From NCBI GenBank assembly GCA_017893485.1, contig CM030359.1:30074430-30138429 (forward strand): a stretch of 64,000 nucleotides of DNA, read 5' to 3'. The notes beneath the pieces were generated by a model, which worked only from the letters and a program-made list of their open reading frames with translations, did not search any database and was not told where the DNA came from. This document shows, one piece after another, positions 12,735-62,580 of the stretch. Both the position numbers and the translations under genes were made by a program. This DNA comes from Hemerocallis citrina (Eukaryota; Streptophyta; Magnoliopsida; Asparagales; Asphodelaceae). How positions within the stretch are numbered: the stretch's first letter is position 1; each line of letters begins with the position of its first letter.

Positions 12735-13382
12735 TGATGATGGTAAAAATCGCAGCAGATCAGAGCTGTACGATTCCTGCACAGATCTCAAAGCATCCAC
12801 AGGAAGATTAGCCATCACAGGCATCTTTTACAGGTCTGAGCCCACTACAAGACATGAGCTTCTTCCAAGCCCATAAAAAGTGACAGACTAGGCCACTAGG
12901 AGAGACACCCAGCCCATGCAGGCTAGGAGTCAAATCTCTTATCCCCTAACAAGGATATCTAATCTCTTGAGGGGGAGAGTCATGAAAGAGATAAGGTAGT
13001 TAAATCGATCCAACAGACATAAATTAATCTCTTGAAATATCTCTCAGGCCTATAAATACCCCTTCCCCTCTACAGTTAGAAGGGAAGGTAATCAACAATT
13101 TGCCAGTTTTGACTCACTTATTCTCTCTCTTTTTCTGGTTCTGACTTGAGCATCGAAGGGTCTGTCGCTGGGGCCACCCCCGGTGTTTCAGGCTTTTTGC
13201 AGGGTCATCGGCCGCATCAGTAATCGTTGAATTCAGATCGCGGTGGTCAATCAACGATCCAGATTCATTCTCAGGAGCTCTAACCGTCTTTAACGGCCAG
13301 GGTCACAGGTTTGACTTCTAGTAGTTTCCTTCAACTATTAACTTACTATCTGTTTGCTTCCCCACCGAAATAAGCAGCAACA
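12735..13382 (+). repeat. 5' LTR of the Tat-type element
   Basis: It starts TGATGATGGTAAAAATC and ends AAGCAGCAACA. It aligns throughout with 30832-31475, by eye with roughly 10 percent substitutions and small indels, so the insertion is not recent. A TATAAATACC-type TATA box lies near 13051. Confidence 0.9.
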
Positions 13383-13384
13383 GA

Positions 13385-30831: not shown

Positions 30832-31475
30832 TGATGATAGTAAAAATTACACCAGATCAGAACCATACAATTCCTGCACAGATCTTAAAGGATCCACAGA
30901 CATATTAGCCATCACAGACATCTTTTACAGGTCTGGGCCCACTCTAAGACATGGGCTTCTTCTAAGCCCATAAAAGTGACAGACTATGCCCACTAGAAGA
31001 GACACCTAGCCCATGCAGACTAGGAGTCAAATCACTTATCCCCTAACAAGGATATGTTATCTCTCGAGGAGGAGAGACATTAAAGAGATAAGACAGTTAA
31101 ATTGATCTAACAGACACAAATCAATCTCTTGAAATATCTCTCAGGCCTATAAATATCCCTCCCCCTCTACAGTCAGAAGGTAATCAACAATTTGCCAATT
31201 TTCACTCTCTTACTCTTTCTCTCTTTCTGGTTCTCGCTTAAGCGTCAGAGGGTCTGTCGCCGGGGCCACCCCCCGGTGTTTCAGGCTTTTTGCAAGTTCA
31301 TTGACCGCATTAGCAACCGTTGAATTCAGATCACGGTGGTCAATCAATGATCCAGATTCATTCTCAGGAGCTCTAACCGTTTTCAACGGTCAGGGTCACA
31401 GGTTCGACTTTTAGTAGTTTCCTTCAATTATTAACTCACTATCTGTTTTCTCCCACACAGAAATAAGTAGCAACA
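30832..31475 (+). repeat. 3' LTR of the Tat-type element
   Basis: Starts TGATGATAGTAAAAATT, ends AAGTAGCAACA, and is followed by the GGTAT duplication. Aligns end to end with the 5' LTR. Confidence 0.9.
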
Positions 31476-31480
31476 GGTAT

Positions 31481-32640: not shown

Positions 32641-33156
32641 AACCAAGACACAGTGGGCGTAGGGCCGAGGACAGTATATTGGTGGGAACTGTAGTGGCAT
32701 CTATGTGGTAAACCACACTGATAGAGAGAAAGGCCTTAGTTAACTGCGGGTCCAAGCTTAGTATAGTTGCTTAGTCCATAATGAGGGTAAATGTAATACC
32801 TCTCGATGAGCTTAGAATTAACTGGTGGGTTCGTAGTAATTATTAGTGGCGCTCGGCTTGTCGGATAGTTTAGATAATATTGTATAGTATAGCATGTGAG
32901 TGTAAGATTATGAATGAAAGTTTAGTCCCATATTGAAAATGAGATTATGTTGGAATTTGTTTAAATAGAGTTAGTTGCCTATGAATTTAAGAGTACCAAC
33001 ATAAACTAGCATTTGTGGCGAAGGCCTAAGGTGGGGTGAAGTTCAGTTCGTAACTGCGAGTTTGTCTTGCTTTACAAACTGGAACTAGTTGGTCTTTTGG
33101 GGTTGAGACTTTTATGTCTATGGTGGAGGAATGACAATACATGGTAGTGACTACAA
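32641..33156. other. Unassigned, retroelement-like flank
   Basis: Contains AGTCCCATATTGAAAATGAG, a phrase frequent in short plant LTRs, and a GGGTATCAGAGCC primer-site-like word just outside at 31733. It may be the remnant of a small LTR element but I cannot define its ends. No coding. Confidence 0.3.
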
Positions 33157-34731
33157 GAATAACTCAAGGACAACTTGGGATTCTTAGATGAGTAGGTCAG
33201 TGTTTGCTTTCAGTTTTTTGTTTTTTTTTTTTGTTTTTTTAATTTTATTTTGTAGAAACTATCCCTCCGTTTAAGTTCCATTAGTGCGCCGTGCTGTTAG
33301 TAACGAAAATACTTGTCCGCCTATTTCCCCCTCTTTTCCACTTTTTCAATCATTTCCCCCACATTCTTAACTACTCTATCTTCTTCCCCCAAATTTAACC
33401 AAACCCTAATTTTTCCTGAAACCCATTTTCTTTCAAAATTGAGAACCCCATCTCACCTTGTCCTCTTTGTCGTAAACTCGGAAGCTAGGGCACCGTGAAT
33501 TGGTAACATTAGAGGAAGGCTAAATTAGAAAAAAAAACCTCACTGAACTATAACACTGGTGAAGAAAAAAAAAATTGTCGTGAACTTTTTTTTGCGCAAA
33601 AAACCTCCGTGAACTATGTTTTCAAAAAACCCATGGCGATGACATCAGCTTCCATTAACTTTTTGACACATGCACCGCACGTGACATATTTTTGGACATT
33701 GCCCTTGTCTAAACATTATCACAAAATCTCACTTATCTATTCAGATTGTACTAAAAAACCTCATTCGTTTTTTCAAGATTTTTCACAAAATATCACTTAT
33801 CTACTCAAGTGTTTTAAAAAAACCTTATAGACTAATGCTTTTATTTAGAAACCTCACCCAATCAGGTTATGATTAATTTCACACTCATCATACATAGTAT
33901 GACCTGCTATCAAAATCCAACAATAAATCAACAAATTCAACATGAATAACTCAGGGACAAATTGGGATTCTTAGATGAGTAGATCAGTGTTTGCTTTCTG
34001 TTTTTTTATTATAAATTTTATTTTCCAGAAACTATCCCTCCGTTTAAGTTCCATTAGTGCGCCGTGTTGTTAATGACGAAAATACTTTTCCGCCTATTTC
34101 CCCCTCTTTCCCACTTTTTCAATCATTTCCCCACATTCTTAACTACTCTCTCTTCTTCCCCCAAATTTAACCAAACCCTAATTTTTCCTCAAAGCCATTT
34201 TCTTTCAAAATTGAGAACCCCATCTCACCTTGTCCTCTTTGTCGTCGACTCAGAAGCTAGGGCACCGTGAATTGGTAACATTAGAGGAAGGCTAAATTAG
34301 AAAAAAAAAACCTCACTGAACTATAACACTCGTGAAAAAAGAAGTTGACACTCCGTGAACTATGTTTTCGCGCAAAATACCTCTGTGAACTATGTTTTCA
34401 AAAAACCCATGGCGATGACATCAGCTTCCGTTAACTTTTTTACACATGCACCGCACGTGACATATTTTTGGACATTGCCCTTGTCTAAACATTTTCACAA
34501 AATTTCACCTATCTACTCAGATTGTACTAAAAAATCTCATTCGTTTTTTCAAGATTTATCACAAAATATCACTTATCTACTCAGCTTGTTTAAAAAAACC
34601 ATATAGACTAATGCTTTTATTCAGAAACCTCACCCAATCAGATTATGATTAATTTCACACTCATCATACATAGTATGACCTGCTATCAACATCCAACAAT
34701 AAATCAACAAATTCAACATCCACCACATTGA
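33157..34731 (+). repeat. 787-bp tandem duplication (host exon plus MULE terminal repeat)
   Basis: Unit 1 (about 33157-33946) and unit 2 (about 33947-34731) align with a constant offset of 787 bp. Both start with AACTC(A)AGGACAA and contain the same putative first exon, the TTAGAGGAA target sequence and the left terminal inverted repeat of the MULE. They end near AAATCAACAAATTCAACAT. The duplication therefore happened after the MULE inserted. Confidence 0.88.
34073..34280 (+). pseudogene. Putative first exon of an unrecognised plastid-targeted host gene
   Basis: From the ATG at 34073 the frame is rich in Ser/Thr/Leu/Phe with a transit-peptide look (FLTTLSSSPKFNQT, KLRTPSHLVLFVVDSEARAP) and then meets TGA. 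Past that stop the same frame continues across the MULE target site into 36444-36481 (TARVWQEFINLK) and a GTGAGT donor. A second copy sits at 33304-33508 in the duplicated unit. Its two CCCTAA/TTTCC-rich flanks look like a plant 5' leader. I do not recognise the protein. The TGA shared by both copies suggests either a pseudogene or a wrong frame. Confidence 0.35.
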
Positions 34732-36434
34732 ACGCATTCTCCCCAAAATTATCAAAATATATAACATTCTCACCATTGAACATGCACAATATATAACATT
34801 CTCACATCATTTCATCAACAAATATAACATCCAACAAATTCAACACATTCACATCAAAAATCAACATCAGATATATGGAACAAACAAAAAAAATATCATG
34901 TGCCAAACTAGTTCTTATACAAAAATCTGTCACAAATACACAATTCCCTCTATATCAGTTTCAAAATCAGACCCCCCCCCCCATATCAGTAACCTACACT
35001 AGTGTTATGATGAGCTTCAAAAGTACCAAAATGGCACATATACAAAATCAGTGCACCTTAGTGATCATAAAAAAATATCCCCTCTATACAAACCACTCTA
35101 ACATCTTCAACAGTACTAAAATAACACATGCCAGTATAACCTAAAAAGTAAGATGAATAAGTAAATATAGTTGCTTATCAGATATTTCATAGAAAATAAA
35201 AACATAATACTAAAATAGAAACCTAGCTCTGATACCATGAAAATGGTATGTTATTTCTCATTCATTCACTTGACTGGATATAATGTCTAGTGTAAATACA
35301 AGATATATAAGCATGGATTCTACCTGAAATATAACAAGTAATACAACTACAACAATATATCTATTAAATTAATACAAAACAAATTAATACAGTTTATAAT
35401 ATTTAAAAAGCACATTAAGAATTTGCTCCAAGTAACTCTTGGCTTCAGGTGTACCTTAGAATCAAATCATGTAATCCCTATATCAAATCTATCATCTTTC
35501 ACCTTCTAGAATTTTAAAAACCTTTCCAAAGTTGTCATCCCAAGTCCATACTATACAACCTTGTACTTAGTATTTGGTCCTTCTTTAAAAACGATGATGA
35601 TGAATCTCCAAACCCAGTAAACAGAAATAATCAATAATATCATCTAAAAAGATACAAGATTTTATGTTTTTTTATTAAATTAACTAATTTCTTTCATAAT
35701 CACCAAACCCAAAATCATTCCCATCAAATTCCCAATATAGTCTACAATCTAACATGCCAACAGAATCTAAATAACCCATCTAGACTAACCACAATCAGAT
35801 AACCAAAGTCACTCCCCACAAACGAAATGAGCCCAAAAAAGATAATATCCCTTTAACCAAATTCCAAATCGAAACATGAGTTGAATACGAAACACAGAAA
35901 GCAAGTACCTTTGAGCTGGGTTTTTCTGAATGGAGTGGGGAAACTAGTGAGTCCTACTTGCCTGAGAGAAGAAGAAGAAGAAGAAGAAGAAGAAGAAGAA
36001 GAAGAAGAAGAAGATGATGATGATGAGGAAAGGGAAATGGGGAAGCGATTGTTTGATGTTGAGTGTACTGATGAGAATAGGAATTGAGCGGAAGCCATGA
36101 GGTTTTTTAATAAAAGCATCAGTTATATGAAGTTTTTTTTTAAACAACCTGAGTAGTTAAGTGAGGTTTTGTGAAAAAAAATTAGAATGATGAATGAGAT
36201 TTTTTAGTACAACCTGAGTAGATGAGTGAGATTTTGTGATAATATTAAGACAAGGACAATTTTGTCCAAAAATATATCACGTGCGGTGCACGTGTTAAAA
36301 AAGCTAATAGAAGCTGACGTCATTGTCTTGAATTTTTTGAAAATGTAGTTCACGAACAATTTTGTGCTCAAACAAATTTTACGGCAATTTTTTTCACAAG
36401 GGTACAGTTCAGCAATGATTTTTCTAATTTAGCC
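34290..36434. mobile_element. Pack-MULE-like element with about 340-bp terminal inverted repeats
   Basis: The left repeat (34290 to about 34640; GGCTAAATTAGAAAAAA, CCTCACTGAACTATAAC) is the inverse of 36105-36434. Outside the ends are TTAGAGGAA (34281-34289) and TTAGAGGAG (36435-36443), a 9-bp duplication with one change, typical of Mutator-like elements. It encodes no transposase and contains host-derived sequence (transit-peptide exon at 35909-36098), the definition of a Pack-MULE. A second left repeat at 33518 results from the tandem duplication. Confidence 0.82.
35909..36098 (-). pseudogene. Captured first exon with chloroplast transit-peptide-like sequence
   Basis: On the minus strand an ATG at 36098 opens MASAQFLFSSVHSTSNNRF followed by a run of Ser codons (TCT repeat, plus-strand AGA/GAA at 35970-36012) and LRQVGLTSFPTPFRKTQLK, ending at AAAG before GTACTTGC, a plausible donor. 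Composition (no acids; Ser, Thr and Arg) is that of a plastid transit peptide. It lies wholly inside the MULE terminal repeats. The parent gene is not recognised; downstream MULE sequence may contain more exons near 35440-35600 that I cannot confirm. Confidence 0.6.
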
Positions 36435-36443
36435 TTAGAGGAG

Positions 36444-36481: not shown

Positions 36482-36573
36482 GGTGAGTCCTTTTTTTTTG
36501 AAGCTCTCACTAATTTAATTTATATACTTCAAAAGCTAATGGGAATGGATGTAAGACAAGTATCTTGGGTTTG

Positions 36574-37014
36574 TGTCAGGGACTTGGATTCTGACCAGCT
36601 ACAGATCTCGCCATTAATGGAGAACAAGAAGGTTAGGGAATGAGAGGGATTGAGAAGAGATCTGAGATTGGGGAAGAAGAAGAGAGGATTGGGGATTGAG
36701 AGAGAGAGAGATGAGAGAGATTGGAGAAGAGTTGAGAACTTTCTATTACTTGAATCAAAGAAATGGAATACAATCTCCTTATATAGCAGGAAGAGAGTTT
36801 GTTACAACAAACTCAGCTACGTGCGATACGCACCCCTCTTCCCGCCCTATTACAGTTTAAAAACACGTGCTCTCTATGTGAACTCCAGATACAATTGAAA
36901 CTATCTGCTGATCACCATCTGCTTCCTTCTTCAGTAAACCATAGTTTCCCAATGGCTTCGGCGACTACTCCGGTGATGGTTGGAACTCCGGTGGCAGCTC
37001 CGGCGTCCCTAACA
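36574..37014 (-). repeat. 3' LTR of the gene-capturing element
   Basis: On the plus strand it runs TGTCAGGGACTTGG to CGTCCCTAACA. Contains a TTATATAG word near 36779 and GA-rich microsatellite variation, the main difference from its partner. Confidence 0.93.
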
Positions 37015-37069
37015 ACTCCACCACCCTTAAAAAATGAGCTTGTCCCCAAGCTCACACTCAGGAAATTTC

Positions 37070-37185
37070 TTCCAGCACCAAATCCTCCAATTGCATAGAG
37101 TTTCTCATTTAGAACGGCCATTGAGTGGCATTTCCTTCTTGATTTCATGTCTGGTACCTACCCTGGAATCAAATATTTCAACATC
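37070..37185 (-). other. Captured kelch-repeat fragment across a frame change
   Basis: The main ORF ends with VEIFDSRVGT then stops at 37105. A second frame from 37148 continues the kelch pattern MKSRRKCHSMAVLNEKLYAI followed by GGFGAG. Together they form one kelch blade of the VEIFDPR-GTW / M---R-CHS-AVLN-KLYAIGG type, with a frameshift and a few codons missing between them. Confidence 0.75.
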
Positions 37186-39633
37186 TGAGAAACTCTCAAA
37201 TTCCTTCCCTTTGTATACTCTGGTAGTCTGATATATCCATGAATTGATCTGCTGATGCACTTCATCTAATATTGGTCCTCTTATAATTGTTAAAGAAACC
37301 TGCCCTCCGGACATGACGGGAAATGAACCATTTGGGCGAAAAATGTATGCTCCAGATGCCTGAGGATCAAACCCACTTCCATCATCTCCCGCATAATAAC
37401 TGAAGGACTGTCCAAAAGAAGCTTTCACCAGACTTCTACTGTTAGCATAAAAAGAAATTTTCCCTTCATGTGCTTTATAGTACAGCTTCAATTTTCCTGG
37501 GCCAACTTCAATACTGCTCTTCTTACTCCTTTGTGATGAATACATGGATGACATCGTAGCAGAGCCTGTCTGCTTTCCACTAGAGATGAAATATGAAGTG
37601 AAACCAAGAGGTGGTACAGATACTGGGAAGGCGAGCAAAAATTGTGGGGTGACACTAGGAGATATGCCTAAGTACGCCTTGACGTACTGACTTCTTAGGT
37701 CTACTGAGGCATTGTTCTTGGGTACAAGCTGAGATTCTATTTCTTTCCCATCAGAACCATAGACAACAATAGATCCGCTTACAACAGGTATACGGATCAC
37801 ATCCTCCCTCTTCCACCCAAGTGCATTGTAGACAAGAACAACCAAGCTTTTCCGATTTGAAAACTCGACTTCAGTTGGAGGACAGTAACTTATATTCAGA
37901 AGAGGACACGGTTCAAACTGTGTTTTTGTATTTGTACAGTCTGAACTGGACCCTAACTCGCTTAAGCAAGCAAATGACAATTCGACCAATTTCTCAGCCT
38001 CTTTATAACCTATATATAGTCTTTTGGCATAATCATCAGCTACATGTTGTTTTGAAGTTCCACTGACAGCATCATGGTGTTGAGCTATGGCTAGAGCATC
38101 AGCCAAACTGTCTGTTGCGGGGCCAGCACTATTCCTTCCTCTGAAAAATTCCAACTGCCTAGCAGCCAGGTAATAAGCACTCATCAATCTGACATAGCCT
38201 TTCAAAGCAGGCCGACTTGTGAAGTATCCAGTCCAATATCCATTTGCATGATCTGCATACGGGAAGAAGTCATCCTTGAGCTCAAAATTCCATATTGAGC
38301 TCCAACTCCCATTGCAGAAATTCTGTGGACTAAATCTTGATGCAGATATCACCACCGCATACTCAAAGTTAGCTTCAGGCCCTTCCACTTCTTTTCCTCC
38401 TGTGTAATAGATAGAACAGGTTCCTTTTGGATTAGCTTCACCATCCCGACGATGCTCTTGCAATCCTAGATTAAGTGGTTCTAATGTATAACAGAAGATT
38501 ACAAGCTCTGCCTCAAAAGCAGCAATGGTTTGTCGCAGCTGAGCTCTAGTCATGTTTGCATAATCAACCTTTTTCATATAAATCTCAAGACATTCATGTT
38601 CTACCTCAAGCAGCATTCCATCCCTTTCAACATCAGGTTCTCCAAATTTATTTGTTCCATTGCTCTCATCTACAAGCTCACACTTATTACTCTTAAACAC
38701 AAGTATATCAGACTTCAAGAACTGCAAAAAAAATGATTGAACAAAATTTTCTCGCATAGGAGGGGGCCATCCATTGAGCACTACTTTGTCATGATTAGGT
38801 ATTAGAACTTCCAATTTCGTCTTCTTGACATTTCGTCGAACATACAATAGACGCTGAAGATAAAGCAGTTGTACCTTTGAAGCATTGTCACGTACACTTG
38901 GTAGCTGATCAACAAGTGTTGTTCGAGCTCTTTTAACTCCTTTTGTAGGTTCTTCATTGATGAAAAACTTGGTGCTTCCACTCGGAGTAGACTTTTTATG
39001 CTGAACTTCCTCTAGTTTCTCCACCTTAACTACCGATTCAACCACTCCAACACTCTCTACATTACTAACAGCAACTGCATCCTCATGAAAGTCATTCTTC
39101 TCAAGAACTGTGCTCACCTCATTCTGACTCAACTCTGACAAAACTCCTCTGCGGTCTTTAATTTCAGTAGGGGCAAATCGGACAATCAACTCTTCCAAGA
39201 ATACTGGCCACAAGATGTCATGAATGCGGGGTTTAATATGCTTATGATACCACAAAGTTGCACTCCCACTTAAACCCAACCAAGCATATTTCAATTTCTC
39301 TGCATCAGGAATTCCGTAAAATTCAAAGAAGTGTTCGGCTCCAAGTATCCAATTTGTTGGATCTCCTCCTTTAAAATTCGGTAACTTCACCTCTTTAAAA
39401 TTCGGAAACTTCATCTTAATTGGAGCTCTATACATGGTTCCACCACCACCACACACTTTCGAATTAATAAAGACAAGATTAGGGTTAGTTACCTCCTTGA
39501 TTGGAATTTGAGGATGACCGATCGGGTACAAAGGAACATTGAGCGGTTGGGAATAGGGTTGCCGTAACTTCACTATCATCGCATCTATTCTTGACAACGC
39601 TGCCTCAAACTTCCCTTCCATTTTGATCGACAT
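37105..39633 (-). CDS. Chimeric gag-MAP65-capping protein-alpha-mannosidase ORF (842 codons)
   Basis: Start chosen at ATG 39633 (MSIKMEGKFEAAL), because the longer frame from 39744 only reads through a later solo LTR. Order by residue: 1-165 gypsy-type gag (FPNFKEVKLPNFKGGDPTNW, LSGSATLWYH, VRFAPTEI); about 165-330 unassigned Lys/Val-rich region; 331-378 microtubule-associated MAP65 N-terminal helix (GEPDVERDGMLLEVEHECLE); 402-453 F-actin capping protein alpha (FEYAVVISASRFSPQNFCNG); 454-813 GH38 alpha-mannosidase; about 817-826 start of a kelch blade (VEIFDSRVGT). The mannosidase part lacks the N-terminal catalytic region, so it cannot be an active glycosidase. No stop or frameshift over 2.5 kb suggests youth or constraint. 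Expression is unknown; the LTR would be the promoter. Confidence 0.88.
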   Translation of the reverse strand: MSIKMEGKFEAALSRIDAMIVKLRQPYSQPLNVPLYPIGHPQIPIKEVTNPNLVFINSKVCGGGGTMYRAPIKMKFPNFKEVKLPNFKGGDPTNWILGAEHFFEFYGIPDAEKLKYAWLGLSGSATLWYHKHIKPRIHDILWPVFLEELIVRFAPTEIKDRRGVLSELSQNEVSTVLEKNDFHEDAVAVSNVESVGVVESVVKVEKLEEVQHKKSTPSGSTKFFINEEPTKGVKRARTTLVDQLPSVRDNASKVQLLYLQRLLYVRRNVKKTKLEVLIPNHDKVVLNGWPPPMRENFVQSFFLQFLKSDILVFKSNKCELVDESNGTNKFGEPDVERDGMLLEVEHECLEIYMKKVDYANMTRAQLRQTIAAFEAELVIFCYTLEPLNLGLQEHRRDGEANPKGTCSIYYTGGKEVEGPEANFEYAVVISASRFSPQNFCNGSWSSIWNFELKDDFFPYADHANGYWTGYFTSRPALKGYVRLMSAYYLAARQLEFFRGRNSAGPATDSLADALAIAQHHDAVSGTSKQHVADDYAKRLYIGYKEAEKLVELSFACLSELGSSSDCTNTKTQFEPCPLLNISYCPPTEVEFSNRKSLVVLVYNALGWKREDVIRIPVVSGSIVVYGSDGKEIESQLVPKNNASVDLRSQYVKAYLGISPSVTPQFLLAFPVSVPPLGFTSYFISSGKQTGSATMSSMYSSQRSKKSSIEVGPGKLKLYYKAHEGKISFYANSRSLVKASFGQSFSYYAGDDGSGFDPQASGAYIFRPNGSFPVMSGGQVSLTIIRGPILDEVHQQINSWIYQTTRVYKGKEFESFSDVEIFDSRVGTRHEIKKEMPLNGRSK
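37195..38274 (-). other. Captured GH38 alpha-mannosidase segment (intron-free)
   Basis: About 360 codons beginning DDFFPYADHANGYWTGYFTS and running through AIAQHHDAVSGTSKQHVADD, LVVLVYNALGWKREDVIRIP, SGAYIFRPNGSFPV and IRGPILDEVHQQINSWIYQ. These are the middle domain and the first part of the C-terminal beta domain of plant vacuolar/apoplastic alpha-mannosidase. The His of QHHD, one metal ligand, is kept, but the N-terminal barrel with the other ligands and the Asp nucleophile is missing. Native plant genes are split by many introns; none remain, so capture was from spliced RNA. Confidence 0.93.
38275..38430 (-). other. Captured F-actin capping protein alpha fragment
   Basis: About 52 codons: PKGTCSIYYTGGKEVEGPEA, then FEYAVVISASRFSPQNFCNG and SWSSIWNFEL. 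SPQNFCNGSWRS-W is the signature of capping-protein alpha. The C-terminal actin-binding tail is not included; the sequence switches to mannosidase within two codons. Confidence 0.85.
38500..38643 (-). other. Captured MAP65 (microtubule-bundling protein) fragment
   Basis: About 48 codons: GEPDVERDGMLLEVEHECLE, then YMKKVDYANMTRAQLRQTIA and AAFEAELV. Plant MAP65/PRC1-type proteins begin with this pattern (IW-E-GES--ERDKMLL-LE-ECL-VYRRKVD). Only the first predicted coiled-coil segment is present and similarity stops abruptly. Assignment is from pattern memory and needs a search. Confidence 0.7.
39130..39633 (-). other. Gag-like domain of the chimeric ORF
   Basis: FKGGDPTNWILGAEHFFEFY, then KLKYAWLGLSGSATLWYH and FLEELIVRFAPTEIKDRRG form the capsid core of Ty3/gypsy gag (Retrotrans_gag). 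It is followed by LSELSQNEV where gag normally goes on to a zinc knuckle; no CCHC motif is present, so gag is C-terminally truncated and replaced by captured sequence. Confidence 0.8.
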
Positions 39634-40880
39634 TGATGGAACTGAGATGATTCCCAGGACTACAGATTGGTGTGCGTATCGATCGTTAAATATAAATAGA
39701 TTAAAAATGTGATCTAACCCTATATAGCAGAATCTAGGGTTCACAAATTATACCTGCGGTGAGAAGAAGACGACAGCGACCCCAAGATCTTCTGCACGTA
39801 TTCCTTCCTCGGGTTGGACGTCGTGTGGGCGACGATCTCCCAACCTTTCTTCTCCTTGGCTGACCTCTCTTTCTCTCCTTACGTGAATCACGAGTTTTGA
39901 GAAAAAAATCTTATATTTCAGATTGTGAATGACAGCCAGAGAATAGAGGATATATATAAGGCTACGGCAGGGACCATGAGGAGAAATTAGGGTTAGGTCT
40001 CCTAACGAATCTGGGTATCCCGTGTTCAGCCCGAACACACAACCCAGGCCCATTAACAATAGCTCGGTCCACTAAGGAGCTATTGTTGCACTACCTTCCT
40101 AATCCCAAATTATATTTATGGGCTCCTTTTATTATATGCTGGTTCAACTCCCCATGTTAAGATATCGAATGTCCGTCGATCAAATTAAGTTACTGATAAC
40201 TATATTGATCAACATCTTTTATCCTTAAGTAGTACCACTCAACTTTATTTGTCATGTCGGATGTAATCCACCTGCAGGGTTTACATGACAATCCTTATGA
40301 GCTCCTTAAGGGGACATCATCAACCCGACGTATCGGGACATGGATTTCTTTTACAATCAACAGCCCATCATACATACAATGCTATTACCCAATTCATAGA
40401 GGTTGTTGATCCATAATGAATCTCACTCTTTTATGAGTCAAAGTAATGCACACTGCATATACATGTCTGTTATTATATCTGGATTAAGAGCATAAGCATC
40501 CATAATAACAGAGGTGTTTGTTCTCTTTTGTAGTCAGTACAAAGAGAACAACCTCAAGTGGTCCTGTTCAATACACACAAAGTGTACTAGTATAAACCTA
40601 TAGTCAAGACAGACTAATACCAGATTACACTACAACCTTTCCAATGGATTGTCCAAGTCCGTCTAGGTTGTGAACTATTTATATATTCCATAGGGAAACT
40701 GATAATATGATCATCTGTGTGTCACCTCACACCATATTATCAACCTTATAGAATATCAGACACTTGCATTAATATTATAATAAACACAATATGCAAACAT
40801 ATGCCCATATGATTCTCATTCAAAAAAATAAGGAAATAAAGTTAATACAAAAGTGATGCTTTCAGTATATAACCCTAACA
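39634..40880 (-). mobile_element. Solo LTR nested at the chimeric ORF start
   Basis: A 1247-bp unit with TG...CA ends (minus strand begins TGTTAGGGTTATATACTG) flanked by a perfect GACAT duplication at 39629-39633 and 40881-40885. It has no primer site or coding. The lower duplication supplies the ATGTC that starts the chimeric ORF. A 37-codon extension of that ORF into this LTR is read-through. Probably copia type from its ends; family not certain. Confidence 0.85.
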
Positions 40881-40929
40881 GACATTGCTTGGATCTTCGT
40901 CGTCGATGAGAATGGTGGGAGAATCGACG

Positions 40930-40941
40930 GCTCTGATACCA
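40930..40941 (-). other. tRNA-iMet primer-binding site of the gene-capturing element
   Basis: The minus strand reads TGGTATCAGAGC, a perfect 12-base match to the site complementary to plant initiator tRNA-Met, two bases inside the 5' LTR. Confidence 0.9.
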
Positions 40942-40943
40942 CT

Positions 40944-41390
40944 TGTCAGGGACTTGGATTCTGACCAGCTACAGATCTCGCCATTAATGGAGAATAAGGA
41001 GGTTAGGGAATGAGAGGGATTGAGAAGAGATCTGAGATTGGGGAAGAAGAAGAGAGGATTGGGGATTGAGAGAGAGAGATGAGAATAGATCTGAGATTGG
41101 AGAAGAGTTGAGAACTTTCTATTACTTGAATCAAAGAAATGGAATACAATCTCCTTATATAGCAGGAAGAGAGTTTGTTACAACAAACTCAGCTACGTGC
41201 GATACGCACCCCTCTTCCCGCCCTATTACAGTTTAAAAACACGTGCTCTCTATGTAAACTCCAGATACAATTGAAACTATCTGCTGATCACCATCTGCTT
41301 CCTTCTTCAGTATACTATAGTTCCCCAATGGCTTTGGCGACTACTCCGGTGATGGTTGGAACTCCGGTGGCAGCTCCGGCGTCCCTAACA
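40944..41390 (-). repeat. 5' LTR of the gene-capturing element
   Basis: Partner of 36574-37014 with the same ends; 6 bp longer because of a GA-rich indel near 41070-41095. Followed on its inner side by the primer-binding site. Confidence 0.93.
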
Positions 41391-41439
41391 GTTTGAGTTT
41401 GAAGCGGTCCCTAGGGTTTGTTTGTTTGGTTGTTTTCAG

Positions 41440-61399: not shown

Positions 61400-61760
61400 A
61401 TCCTAATATATCTGACAGCCTAGGGTTTCTTTAGATCTCTATAAAAATAATGTAATAACATTCATTGAGAGGTAATACTTCATCTAAGAGTTTTCCATTG
61501 TAAACAACAGAGTATTTTCTAGTGAGGCTTGAGAGATAGATAGGTTCTTGGTGATAGTATACTAACTCTTGTTTCTTCTTTAGTGGAATAATATATCTGT
61601 TATTCCCCCCCCCCCCCCCCCCCCCCCTCCAGATTAGGCTCGCCGAACCGGGACAAAAATGTGTGCTTCTATGTTTGATTTAGTCTACATTGCTTGATTG
61701 TTCATTGTAATCGATTGTTGTGTCTCGCCACAACCCCCGCTGCACTTAAATTTCCTAACA
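61400..61760 (+). repeat. Truncated 3' LTR of the intron-2 copia element
   Basis: Aligns with 56317-56682 of the 5' LTR (CCTAGGGTTTC, GAGTATTTTCTAGTGAGGC, GAACCGGGACAAAAATGTG). An independent C-tract of about 20 lies at 61607-61626, at a different LTR position from the one at 56641. Confidence 0.85.
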
Positions 61761-61945
61761 TACAGAATATAGCTCGACTAAAAACTACATCTAGAGTTTA
61801 TTAACTATCCTTACAGAAAAAAAGTAAAAAAATATCTAACTATGTTAAGGCGAGAACTAAATGGTTAACCTGTTTCTCAACTAACATTATTCCGAGATCA
61901 AATAATCAAGGTATACATCTGCATTATTCTGCTTAGACTGCGTAC

Positions 61946-62038
61946 CTCTTTTAATCCATGCAAACGAGCACTTGTGACGGTCATATGTGTTACATCATCT
62001 CTGTCAAAATTAGGTCGAGCATCACTTACATTCCTCAC
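61946..62038 (-). pseudogene. ABP1-like gene, exon 2 copy A
   Basis: 93 nt, 31 codons, with clean CTGCAG acceptor and GTACGC donor. Reads VRNVSDARPNFDRDDVTHMT, then VTSARLHGLKE. Joined to exon 3 it gives LHGLKE-VEIWLQT, the conserved LHGMKEVEVWLQT of ABP1. No stop. The first exon (signal peptide) was not found. Confidence 0.88.
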
Positions 62039-62124
62039 CTGCAGAGAACCTATAAAGAAAAATCCAAGATAGAAAATGTGAAAACTATTTTTATACAACA
62101 ACAACAACAAAAATAACATAGCCT

Positions 62125-62189
62125 AAATTTGACAGAGATGATGTAACACATCATCTCTGTCAACCCCCGCTGCAACCTCTCGCTACAAC
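62125..62189. repeat. Inverted exon-2 scrap forming a hairpin at the duplication junction
   Basis: GACAGAGATGATGT-AAC-ACATCATCTCTGTC is a perfect 14-bp stem with a 3-nt loop. Its first arm on the plus strand equals the coding strand of exon 2, the reverse of the nearby exon. A short CCCCGCTGC repeat follows. Confidence 0.9.
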
Positions 62190-62400
62190 CCCCGCTGCGC
62201 TTAAATTTCCTAACATATAGAATATAGCTCGACTAAAAACGACATCTAAAGTTTATTAACTATCCTTACAGAAAACAAGTAAAAAAATATCTAACTATGT
62301 TAAGGCGAGAACTAAATGGTTAACCTGTTTCTCAACTAACATTATTCCGAGATCAAATAATCAAGGTATACATCTGCATTATTCTGCTTAGACTGCGTAC

Positions 62401-62493
62401 CTCTTTTAATCCATGCAAACGAGCACTTGTGACGGTCATATATGTTACATCATCTCTGTCAAAATTAGGTCGAGCATCACTTACATTCCTCAC
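62401..62493 (-). pseudogene. ABP1-like gene, exon 2 copy B
   Basis: Same exon and splice sites as copy A with one visible change (His to Tyr before the MTV motif). In the gene direction it precedes copy A; a transcript splicing both would repeat 31 residues in frame. Confidence 0.88.
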
Positions 62494-62580
62494 CTGCAGA
62501 GAACCTATAAAGAAAAATCGAAGATAGAAAAATGTGAAAACTATTTTTATACAACAACAACAACAAAAATAACATAGCCT

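Follow-up and report, generated by a model that had tools for sequence, protein, structure and literature searches.

Among the closest described counterparts of the element studied here is Bs1 of maize, in which pieces of three host genes form a hybrid ORF (PMC13317346). Capture of a single host gene is not rare in plants, contrary to what the original prediction held for host-gene transduction as a whole: host gene fragments are described in 425 maize LTR elements (PMC2774510), and the captured genes are put at 672 in rice and 1,343 in sorghum (PMC3726574). Capture of several genes is rare; in its accessible part, the maize survey gives, under its conditions, no element that combines fragments from two or more standard nuclear genes (PMC2774510). 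TR-GAG is the name of a class of LTR elements that are short and non-autonomous and have a gag domain (PMC10025401), and the chimeric LTR elements Veju and BARE-2 are attributed to a switch from one RNA to another inside the same particle (PMC13317346). How does the present locus compare with these? With Bs1 it shares the LTR structure, the pieces of several host genes and the hybrid ORF, a likeness at the level of description, as far as the available text on Bs1 goes. From TR-GAG elements, as their accessible description has them, it differs in that its interior is mostly fused host pieces and its gag stays below the cut-off. In Veju and BARE-2, according to the same partial text, element is joined to element or to unknown sequence, whereas here pieces of many host mRNAs are joined.

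The window, that is, the whole stretch of 64,000 nucleotides analysed, contains on its minus strand an element bounded by two LTRs with TG...CA ends (Table 1). The LTRs differ by 12 mismatches in 441 aligned bases and a 6-base gap (K2P 0.028), and the target-site duplication GTTTG is found on both flanks. The primer binding site GTGGTATCAGAGCC, which we take to be of the initiator-Met (iMet) type, lies one base past the 5' LTR, and the purine-rich tract TAAGGGTGGTGGAGT adjoins the 3' LTR. The predicted LTRs, target duplication, primer site and polypurine tract are thus all present. The predicted lack of pol was confirmed as well: Pfam scans of the window element and of the scanned sister segments gave no pol domain, and a simple motif scan gave no YxDD-like motif in 30 sister interiors and no pol-bearing partner. 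The element is not an autonomous LTR retrotransposon with its own reverse transcriptase and integrase.

Table 1. Features of the window element (positions in the window)
Feature	Position	Strand
Target-site duplication GTTTG, left copy	36569..36573	
3' LTR, 441 bp	36574..37014	-
Purine-rich tract beside 3' LTR	37015..37029	-
Kelch gene piece	37079..37211	-
Chimeric ORF, 842 aa, family's ATG to stop	37105..39633	-
GH38 alpha-mannosidase cDNA piece	37228..38274	-
8 shared bases, capping protein / mannosidase switch, in frame	38267..38274	-
Capping protein alpha piece	38267..38443	-
MAP65-like piece, below Pfam cut-off (source unproven)	38483..38618	-
Family module (weak gag and GWPPP-containing stretch)	38658..39633	-
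ATGTC, one copy, duplication of nested solo LTR	39629..39633	
Solo LTR of a different element, nested, 1,247 bp	39634..40880	-
ATGTC, other copy, duplication of nested solo LTR	40881..40885	
Primer binding site	40929..40942	-
5' LTR, 447 bp	40944..41390	-
Target-site duplication GTTTG, right copy	41391..41395	

What does the interior encode? The frame 37105-39744 (minus strand) is open for 879 aa, or 842 aa when counted from the family's ATG. The pieces in it follow in the order weak gag, family module, possible MAP65, capping protein alpha, GH38 alpha-mannosidase and kelch. Four host families had been named beforehand, and three of them exceed the Pfam cut-off in the window element: mannosidase (Alpha-mann_mid 3.9e-21, Glyco_hydro_38C 1.7e-9, Laman-like 4.7e-8), capping protein (F-actin_cap_A 5e-7) and kelch (Kelch_1 4.9e-6, at the 3' end and in a frame other than the main ORF). 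A match to jack bean alpha-mannosidase in the PDB (1.1e-106) extends over residues 481-849. The mannosidase piece matches ten exon blocks of a donor gene on C4 (L041), spanning 37228-38260, and nine of nine introns are exactly removed (8 GT-AG and 1 GC-AG). The capping-protein piece spans an exon junction whose sides lie about 2.0 kb and 6.4 kb apart in two donor loci (C10 and C8). The two pieces meet in frame at GATGACTT, 8 bases shared by otherwise unrelated stretches, and this is the only junction with fully seen microhomology. Both parent lines of the switch are present: L044-L047 continue in capping protein, and L043 and L023 arrive from upstream mannosidase. The lost introns, the crossed exon junction and the 8-base switch bear out the prediction of a pol-less element in which spliced fragments from several host mRNAs are joined to an element ORF, in the manner of a Bs1-like element.

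Could the pieces have been captured as DNA, by Helitrons, Pack-type transposons or break repair? Partial, intron-bearing copies of the mannosidase gene lie at five further places, which is in favour of this route, but exact intron loss effectively refutes it for the mannosidase piece, and LTRs with target duplications are found in 24 of the 31 family members described below. We regard it as very improbable. A Helitron or Pack-type origin, in which introns are kept, was rejected for the mannosidase piece on the same ground. An ordinary fused host gene lying between LTRs by chance, or an assembly artefact, would account for real domains in a long open frame, but the pieces trace back to different donor loci, which rules out the ordinary fused gene, and L042, another LTR unit with its own target duplication, has the fused interior too; the chance of this explanation is negligible. 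Among 40 scored of 330 candidates, the capping-mannosidase join was found only twice, in the window element and in L042, which is flanked by LTRs, and never as an intron-bearing gene. The conditions named beforehand as refuting the prediction thus did not overturn it.

The kelch piece also occurs in L009, L042, L043 and L026 contexts; a short deletion, absent from L009 and L042, shifts its frame in the window copy. The putative MAP65 piece reaches 16.2 bits, below the cut-off of 26.9 (sister L045: 19.4); a protein search with this stretch gave none of 21 candidates at E 10, and it matches C4:212439995-212440130, outside the fetched family copies, at 89%. MAP65 as its source is unproven. The predicted gag is present only as a sub-cut-off match (14.2 against 24.1, and at most 21.6 in sisters) at 39118-39288, within the module common to L048-L052; a search for protein relatives of the gag and GWPPP stretch gave none among 3012 candidates at E 0.001. 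As for TR-GAG features, gag is below the cut-off in every member scanned, with no pol. Ty3_capsid and Retrotrans_gag matches below the cut-off appear in several sisters, again with no pol for placement in the Ty3/gypsy superfamily.

Is the window element a single case? The 3'-end junction motif of the family has 317 sites in the 3.78-Gb genome and none in a reversed control. Forty regions were fetched, from which we excluded L041 (the donor gene), L057 and L058 (exon-intron copies), L024, L025, L028, L047, L055 and L059 (no direct LTR pair) and L027 (its LTR pair was judged to be a neighbour's). This left 31 LTR-paired members, the window element and 30 sisters, which were picked by similarity and not at random. 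Pfam was run on 134 of 135 sense segments of at least 60 aa (L022:1552-1812 was left out). Two or more host families were identified in each of at least 14 of the 31 members, 24 host families exceed the cut-off over the whole set, and modules are exchanged, whereas Bs1 is described in the text available as one case. The maize, rice and sorghum captures are likewise host gene fragments in LTR elements, and the maize survey, in its accessible part, has none with several genes, unlike the present family. In antisense, no Pfam match was found in the 70 longest of 242 open segments, and no interior segment is common to members. L054 joins ten exon blocks from a kinase locus of 15 kb, as judged from coordinates only. 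The original prediction pointed to two cytoskeletal sources, but a cytoskeletal theme does not extend to the sisters, whose host genes include kinase, LepA, HSP90, metabolic and RNA-decay genes. A literature search by titles and the first parts of abstracts, with subscription papers mostly outside it, gave no description of such a family that we recognised.

What mechanism might produce these fusions? It is probable that this is a pol-less LTR family in which spliced host fusions likely arise by template switching and open-frame fusions likely spread. We infer packaging, template switching as the joining step and an open-frame filter. Element RNA and cellular mRNAs would be packaged together in the particles of a presumed autonomous partner, and reverse transcriptase would switch templates between element RNA and host mRNA as well as between element RNAs. 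Modules common to members with unlike LTRs agree at 94-98%; L042, for instance, resembles the window element at 95-98% in the interior and at 73% in the LTRs. This sharing would also suit a few old captures for which DNA recombination or gene conversion among copies, rather than reverse transcriptase, did most of the reshuffling, but the 8-base switch unites otherwise unrelated stretches, and at least 24 host families demand many captures. We consider that explanation unlikely, although DNA-level recombination between copies could be a partial source of module sharing. Since modules circulate among members, the window copy need not be the builder of chimeras it had been taken for; the element is real, but as a member of a large family.

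Template switching would explain the joining; is there also a filter for open frames among the fusions? Five sisters have one frame across 97.8-100% of the interior, which was matched in 1.0-2.3% of 300 random-phase trials each. In a hand-made list of neighbouring host pairs, 16 of 19 share a frame (p 7e-6 for an expectation of one third) and 3 are out of frame; in L042 mannosidase and kelch are in different frames. One explanation is mRNA capture by template switching with no such filter, the long frames being coding pieces in young copies. A decay of openness with LTR age was sought among the members and openness was independent of age (rho -0.19, p 0.31), the young members L009 and L020 have broken frames, and the window copy shows little sign of protein constraint, all in keeping with this explanation. 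However, it predicts one third of joins in frame, far fewer than listed, and it has to meet the five interiors open almost throughout; it deserves some weight, though clearly the smaller share. If a filter operates, RNAs with early stops might be degraded ahead of packaging, or gag-linked translation might help the RNA. The mannosidase of the window copy shows little sign of preservation (dN/dS 0.87); what such a filter selects would therefore be an open frame rather than a working enzyme. The ratio is lower in L043 (0.43) and L023 (0.57), and constraint in some lineages may therefore still exist.

Exon shuffling is thought to give rise to new multi-domain genes, and natural sources that produce in-frame fusions in large number within a single genome are hard to come by. 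There is perhaps an even chance that the family is a standing exon-shuffling machine, in which new pieces of host mRNA are fused to the gag start, modules are traded as RNA, and a translation-dependent filter passes mainly chimeras whose single frame stays open all the way between gag and the 3' LTR, with the result that the genome is continually seeded with Gag-tethered multi-domain ORFs. The family offers many datable, related chimeras with the donor genes in the same genome, and questions which the single case Bs1 could not settle thus become testable: how often reverse transcriptase joins unrelated mRNAs and at what homologies, which mRNAs get packaged, and whether translation filters the products.

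One more feature, overlooked in the original prediction, is a solo LTR of another element nested in the window element, with its own 5-bp duplication ATGTC. The part of the open frame upstream of the family's ATG, to 39744, lies within it, and it is missing from the corresponding place in L013, L014, L023 and L042.

The original prediction of an LTR retrotransposon is borne out: the element lies on the minus strand, is bounded by TG...CA and flanked on either side by GTTTG, and has a purine-rich tract and a primer binding site that we take to be of the initiator-Met type. A 6-base gap and 12 mismatches in an alignment of 441 bases separate its LTRs of 441 and 447 bp (K2P 0.028), and the insertion is about 1.1 or 2.0 million years old, depending on whether an LTR substitution rate of 1.3e-8 or 7e-9 is used. 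What does it carry? From the family's ATG at 39633 the frame encodes 842 aa. Pfam recovered alpha-mannosidase domains, capping protein alpha and kelch, the last in a different frame at the 3' end, while the predicted MAP65 and gag stayed below cut-off; the scan found no pol domain, as had been expected. A PDB search matched jack bean alpha-mannosidase over residues 481-849 (1.1e-106). Between the primer site and the gag ATG sits a nested insertion, which is missing at the corresponding place in four sister elements fetched from the same genome (L013, L014, L023, L042) and is read as the solo LTR of another element.

Coordinates of features in the window and of loci elsewhere in the assembly
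Feature	Coordinates	Observation
LTR retrotransposon	36574-41390	minus strand
Frame without stop	39744 to 37105	minus strand
Nested insertion	39634-40880	1,247 bp; TG start and CA end in minus sense; ATGTC on both sides
Tandem repeat	33153-33943, 33940-34719	91%
Inverted partner of the tandem repeat	36098-36436	78-79%; directly left of the element
Direct repeat	61723-62124, 62178-62580	97.8%; possibly another mobile element
Direct repeat	12735-13383, 30832-31476	87.6%; possibly another mobile element
Donor alpha-mannosidase gene (L041)	C4:306134921-306139797	matches exon by exon (40 scored of 330 candidates)
Partial mannosidase copies	C2:372032435, C9:208661742, C3:90324300, C2:154841958, C7:56390377	separate exon blocks; introns apparently kept (40 scored of 330 candidates)
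Match to the MAP65-like stretch	C4:212439995-212440130	89%
Locus matching the kinase piece of sister L054	C5:54270228-54285644	15 kb; ten exon blocks, 90-100% (40 scored of 101 candidates)
Unnamed locus matching the interior of sister L045	C1:40235022-40235650	four blocks (40 scored of 75 candidates)
Region L024	C7:271322000-271327000	two family LTR pieces, inverted orientation, ~2.3 kb apart

The donors were sought by searching the chimera against the H. citrina genome (3.78 Gb, 701 contigs). Ten blocks of L041 match the mannosidase piece, and all nine introns lying between these blocks, 77 to 1877 bp long with eight GT-AG and one GC-AG ends, are exactly absent from the window element. The five partial copies are apparently DNA-level duplicates of the same donor, and since they contain introns, DNA-level copying also occurs; as the origin of the window element's mannosidase piece it is ruled out by the exact removal of nine introns. 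The capping protein piece matches two loci, both split at one common exon junction, by ~2.0 kb on C10 and ~6.4 kb on C8 (12 of 12 candidates scored). For L054 and L045 the introns are deduced from match coordinates: the L054 kinase piece also matches a second locus, on C4 (40 scored of 101 candidates), and in L045 the 3-beta-HSD stretch matches one C5 locus in four blocks spanning 45 kb and the deacetylase stretch matches blocks at six loci (40 scored of 75 candidates). Against the donor, dN/dS is 0.87 in the window element, so there seems to be little sign that its mannosidase sequence is preserved; the value is 1.07 in L042, and the case is less clear in L043 (0.43) and L023 (0.57). Among 120 proteins listed, the closest to the donor mannosidase are those of Iris pallida (76%) and Asparagus (74%), together with an unnamed entry (77%), an indication of a monocot.

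The switch from capping protein to mannosidase in the window element is an in-frame join at GATGACTT. L044-L047 have the same bases followed by further capping protein, L043 and L023 have the mannosidase side and extend upstream within mannosidase, and in L059 these bases follow a left side that is different again. A second microhomology is suggested at the mannosidase-kelch join, where the shared bases AGGGAAGGAA belong to continuous kelch sequence in L009; the donor stretch examined for this join did not show the next mannosidase exon. In the kelch part of the window element, a short deletion relative to L009 and L042 shifts the frame.

How large is the family? The genome-wide LTR search for the predicted sister copies gave at least 44 matches (40 scored of 768 candidates). 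With at most one mismatch allowed, the motif at which the purine tract meets the 3' LTR occurs at 143 + 174 = 317 places, which are motif sites rather than verified full copies, and the reversed control motif at none in the same genome. From 40 regions examined, we kept the 30 sisters that have an LTR pair of their own (2.7-4.2 kb long, with a median of 3.7 kb), giving 31 members with the window element; the sisters were picked because they matched the LTR or the interior best, and are therefore a non-random sample. Of the 31 members, 24 show a 5-bp target duplication and 29 the primer site TGGTATCA; LTR K lies between 0.002 and 0.094. L053 and L054 on C11 are near-identical, and their common target duplication GTTAT and spacing of ~85 kb indicate that they are probably one insertion copied by local duplication.

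By a hand count with related models merged, the members carry 24 host protein families at or above the Pfam curated cut-off: GH38 mannosidase, capping protein alpha, kelch, ribosomal P0, malectin, XRN exonuclease, RCC1, phosphoglucose isomerase, IBR/RING, CMAS, ZZ, BTB-ankyrin, aminotransferase, CDC45, Fe-superoxide dismutase, HSP90, PAPS-reductase/MoCF (FAD synthase type), PPR, protein kinase, cation efflux, 3-beta-HSD, enolase, LepA and radical SAM. Scores below it were obtained for MAP65, diphthamide synthase, FHA and MCM7. Further pieces, identified by PDB matches, are from a vacuolar sorting receptor (L023), HscB (L010) and histone deacetylase (L045). At least 14 of 31 members, a lower bound as their ORFs were tabulated in part, have two or more families: the window element, L009, L010, L011, L017 (ZZ exactly at cut-off), L020, L022, L023, L026, L043, L045, L048, L052 and L054. 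The scanned ORF of L060 gave no host family.

From these results we read the family as a multi-gene transducing LTR family that continues to produce fusions. A 2026 review (PMC13317346) gives three host genes for Bs1 and ascribes Veju and BARE-2 to abnormal template switching. A maize survey (PMC2774510) counts 425 LTR elements with gene fragments, which go back to at least 189 captures; under the conditions it used, none of the elements contained fragments of two or more standard nuclear genes. Captures number 672 in rice and 1,343 in sorghum (PMC3726574); PMC10025401 names TR-GAG as a class, and PMC11963269 treats Retand elements.

Captured pieces are common to units with unlike LTRs. L042 has the interior of the window element in two blocks (98.1% and 94.9%) with the MAP65-like stretch between them absent, and the LTRs of the two are 73% identical. 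The mannosidase stretch shared with L043 is 96% identical, the stretch from gag to capping protein in L044-L046 92-94%, and that from gag to the family module in L048-L054 and L056 91-98%; the LTRs of all these sisters match those of the window element over short stretches or not at all. The pieces are spliced and in sense orientation, with at least one in-frame join at microhomology, and lie within LTR units with target duplications. We propose that pol would come from a partner element, host mRNAs would be co-packaged with element RNA, and reverse transcriptase would jump between templates. Chimeras with an open frame may then persist better, for which decay of early-stop RNAs or a requirement for gag-linked translation is a candidate filter.

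Two observations count against such a filter: no fall of open fraction with LTR age was found (rho -0.19, p 0.31), and the young L009 and L020 are broken. In five sisters (L011, L023, L048, L052, L054) a single frame spans 97.8-100% of the interior; in random-phase trials with four joins each, a number chosen by the analyst, 95% open was reached in 1.0-2.3% of 300 trials per element. The 72 long sense segments gave 73 Pfam models, overlapping and element models counted, and 1 of 63 shorter ones a match, a 60S acidic ribosomal piece. None of the 70 longest (at least 86 aa) of 242 antisense open segments matched Pfam, a limited control since antisense segments are shorter than sense ones, and no antisense sharing of interior segments between members was found. 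Among types of neighbouring host pairs, which unnamed pieces may separate, 16 of 19 lie in one open frame (p 7e-6 vs one third), the others being IBR-kelch (L009), BTB-CDC45 (L020) and HSP90-kelch (L026); without the three ZZ pairs it is 13 of 16 (p 1e-4). Note that the pair list is hand-made, with three sub-threshold names included and three pairs known from PDB matches alone left out, and that one member suffices for a type to count as in frame (mannosidase-kelch: L043 yes, L042 no). Of the columns in shared segments, 94% are in phase, in part a reflection of common descent.
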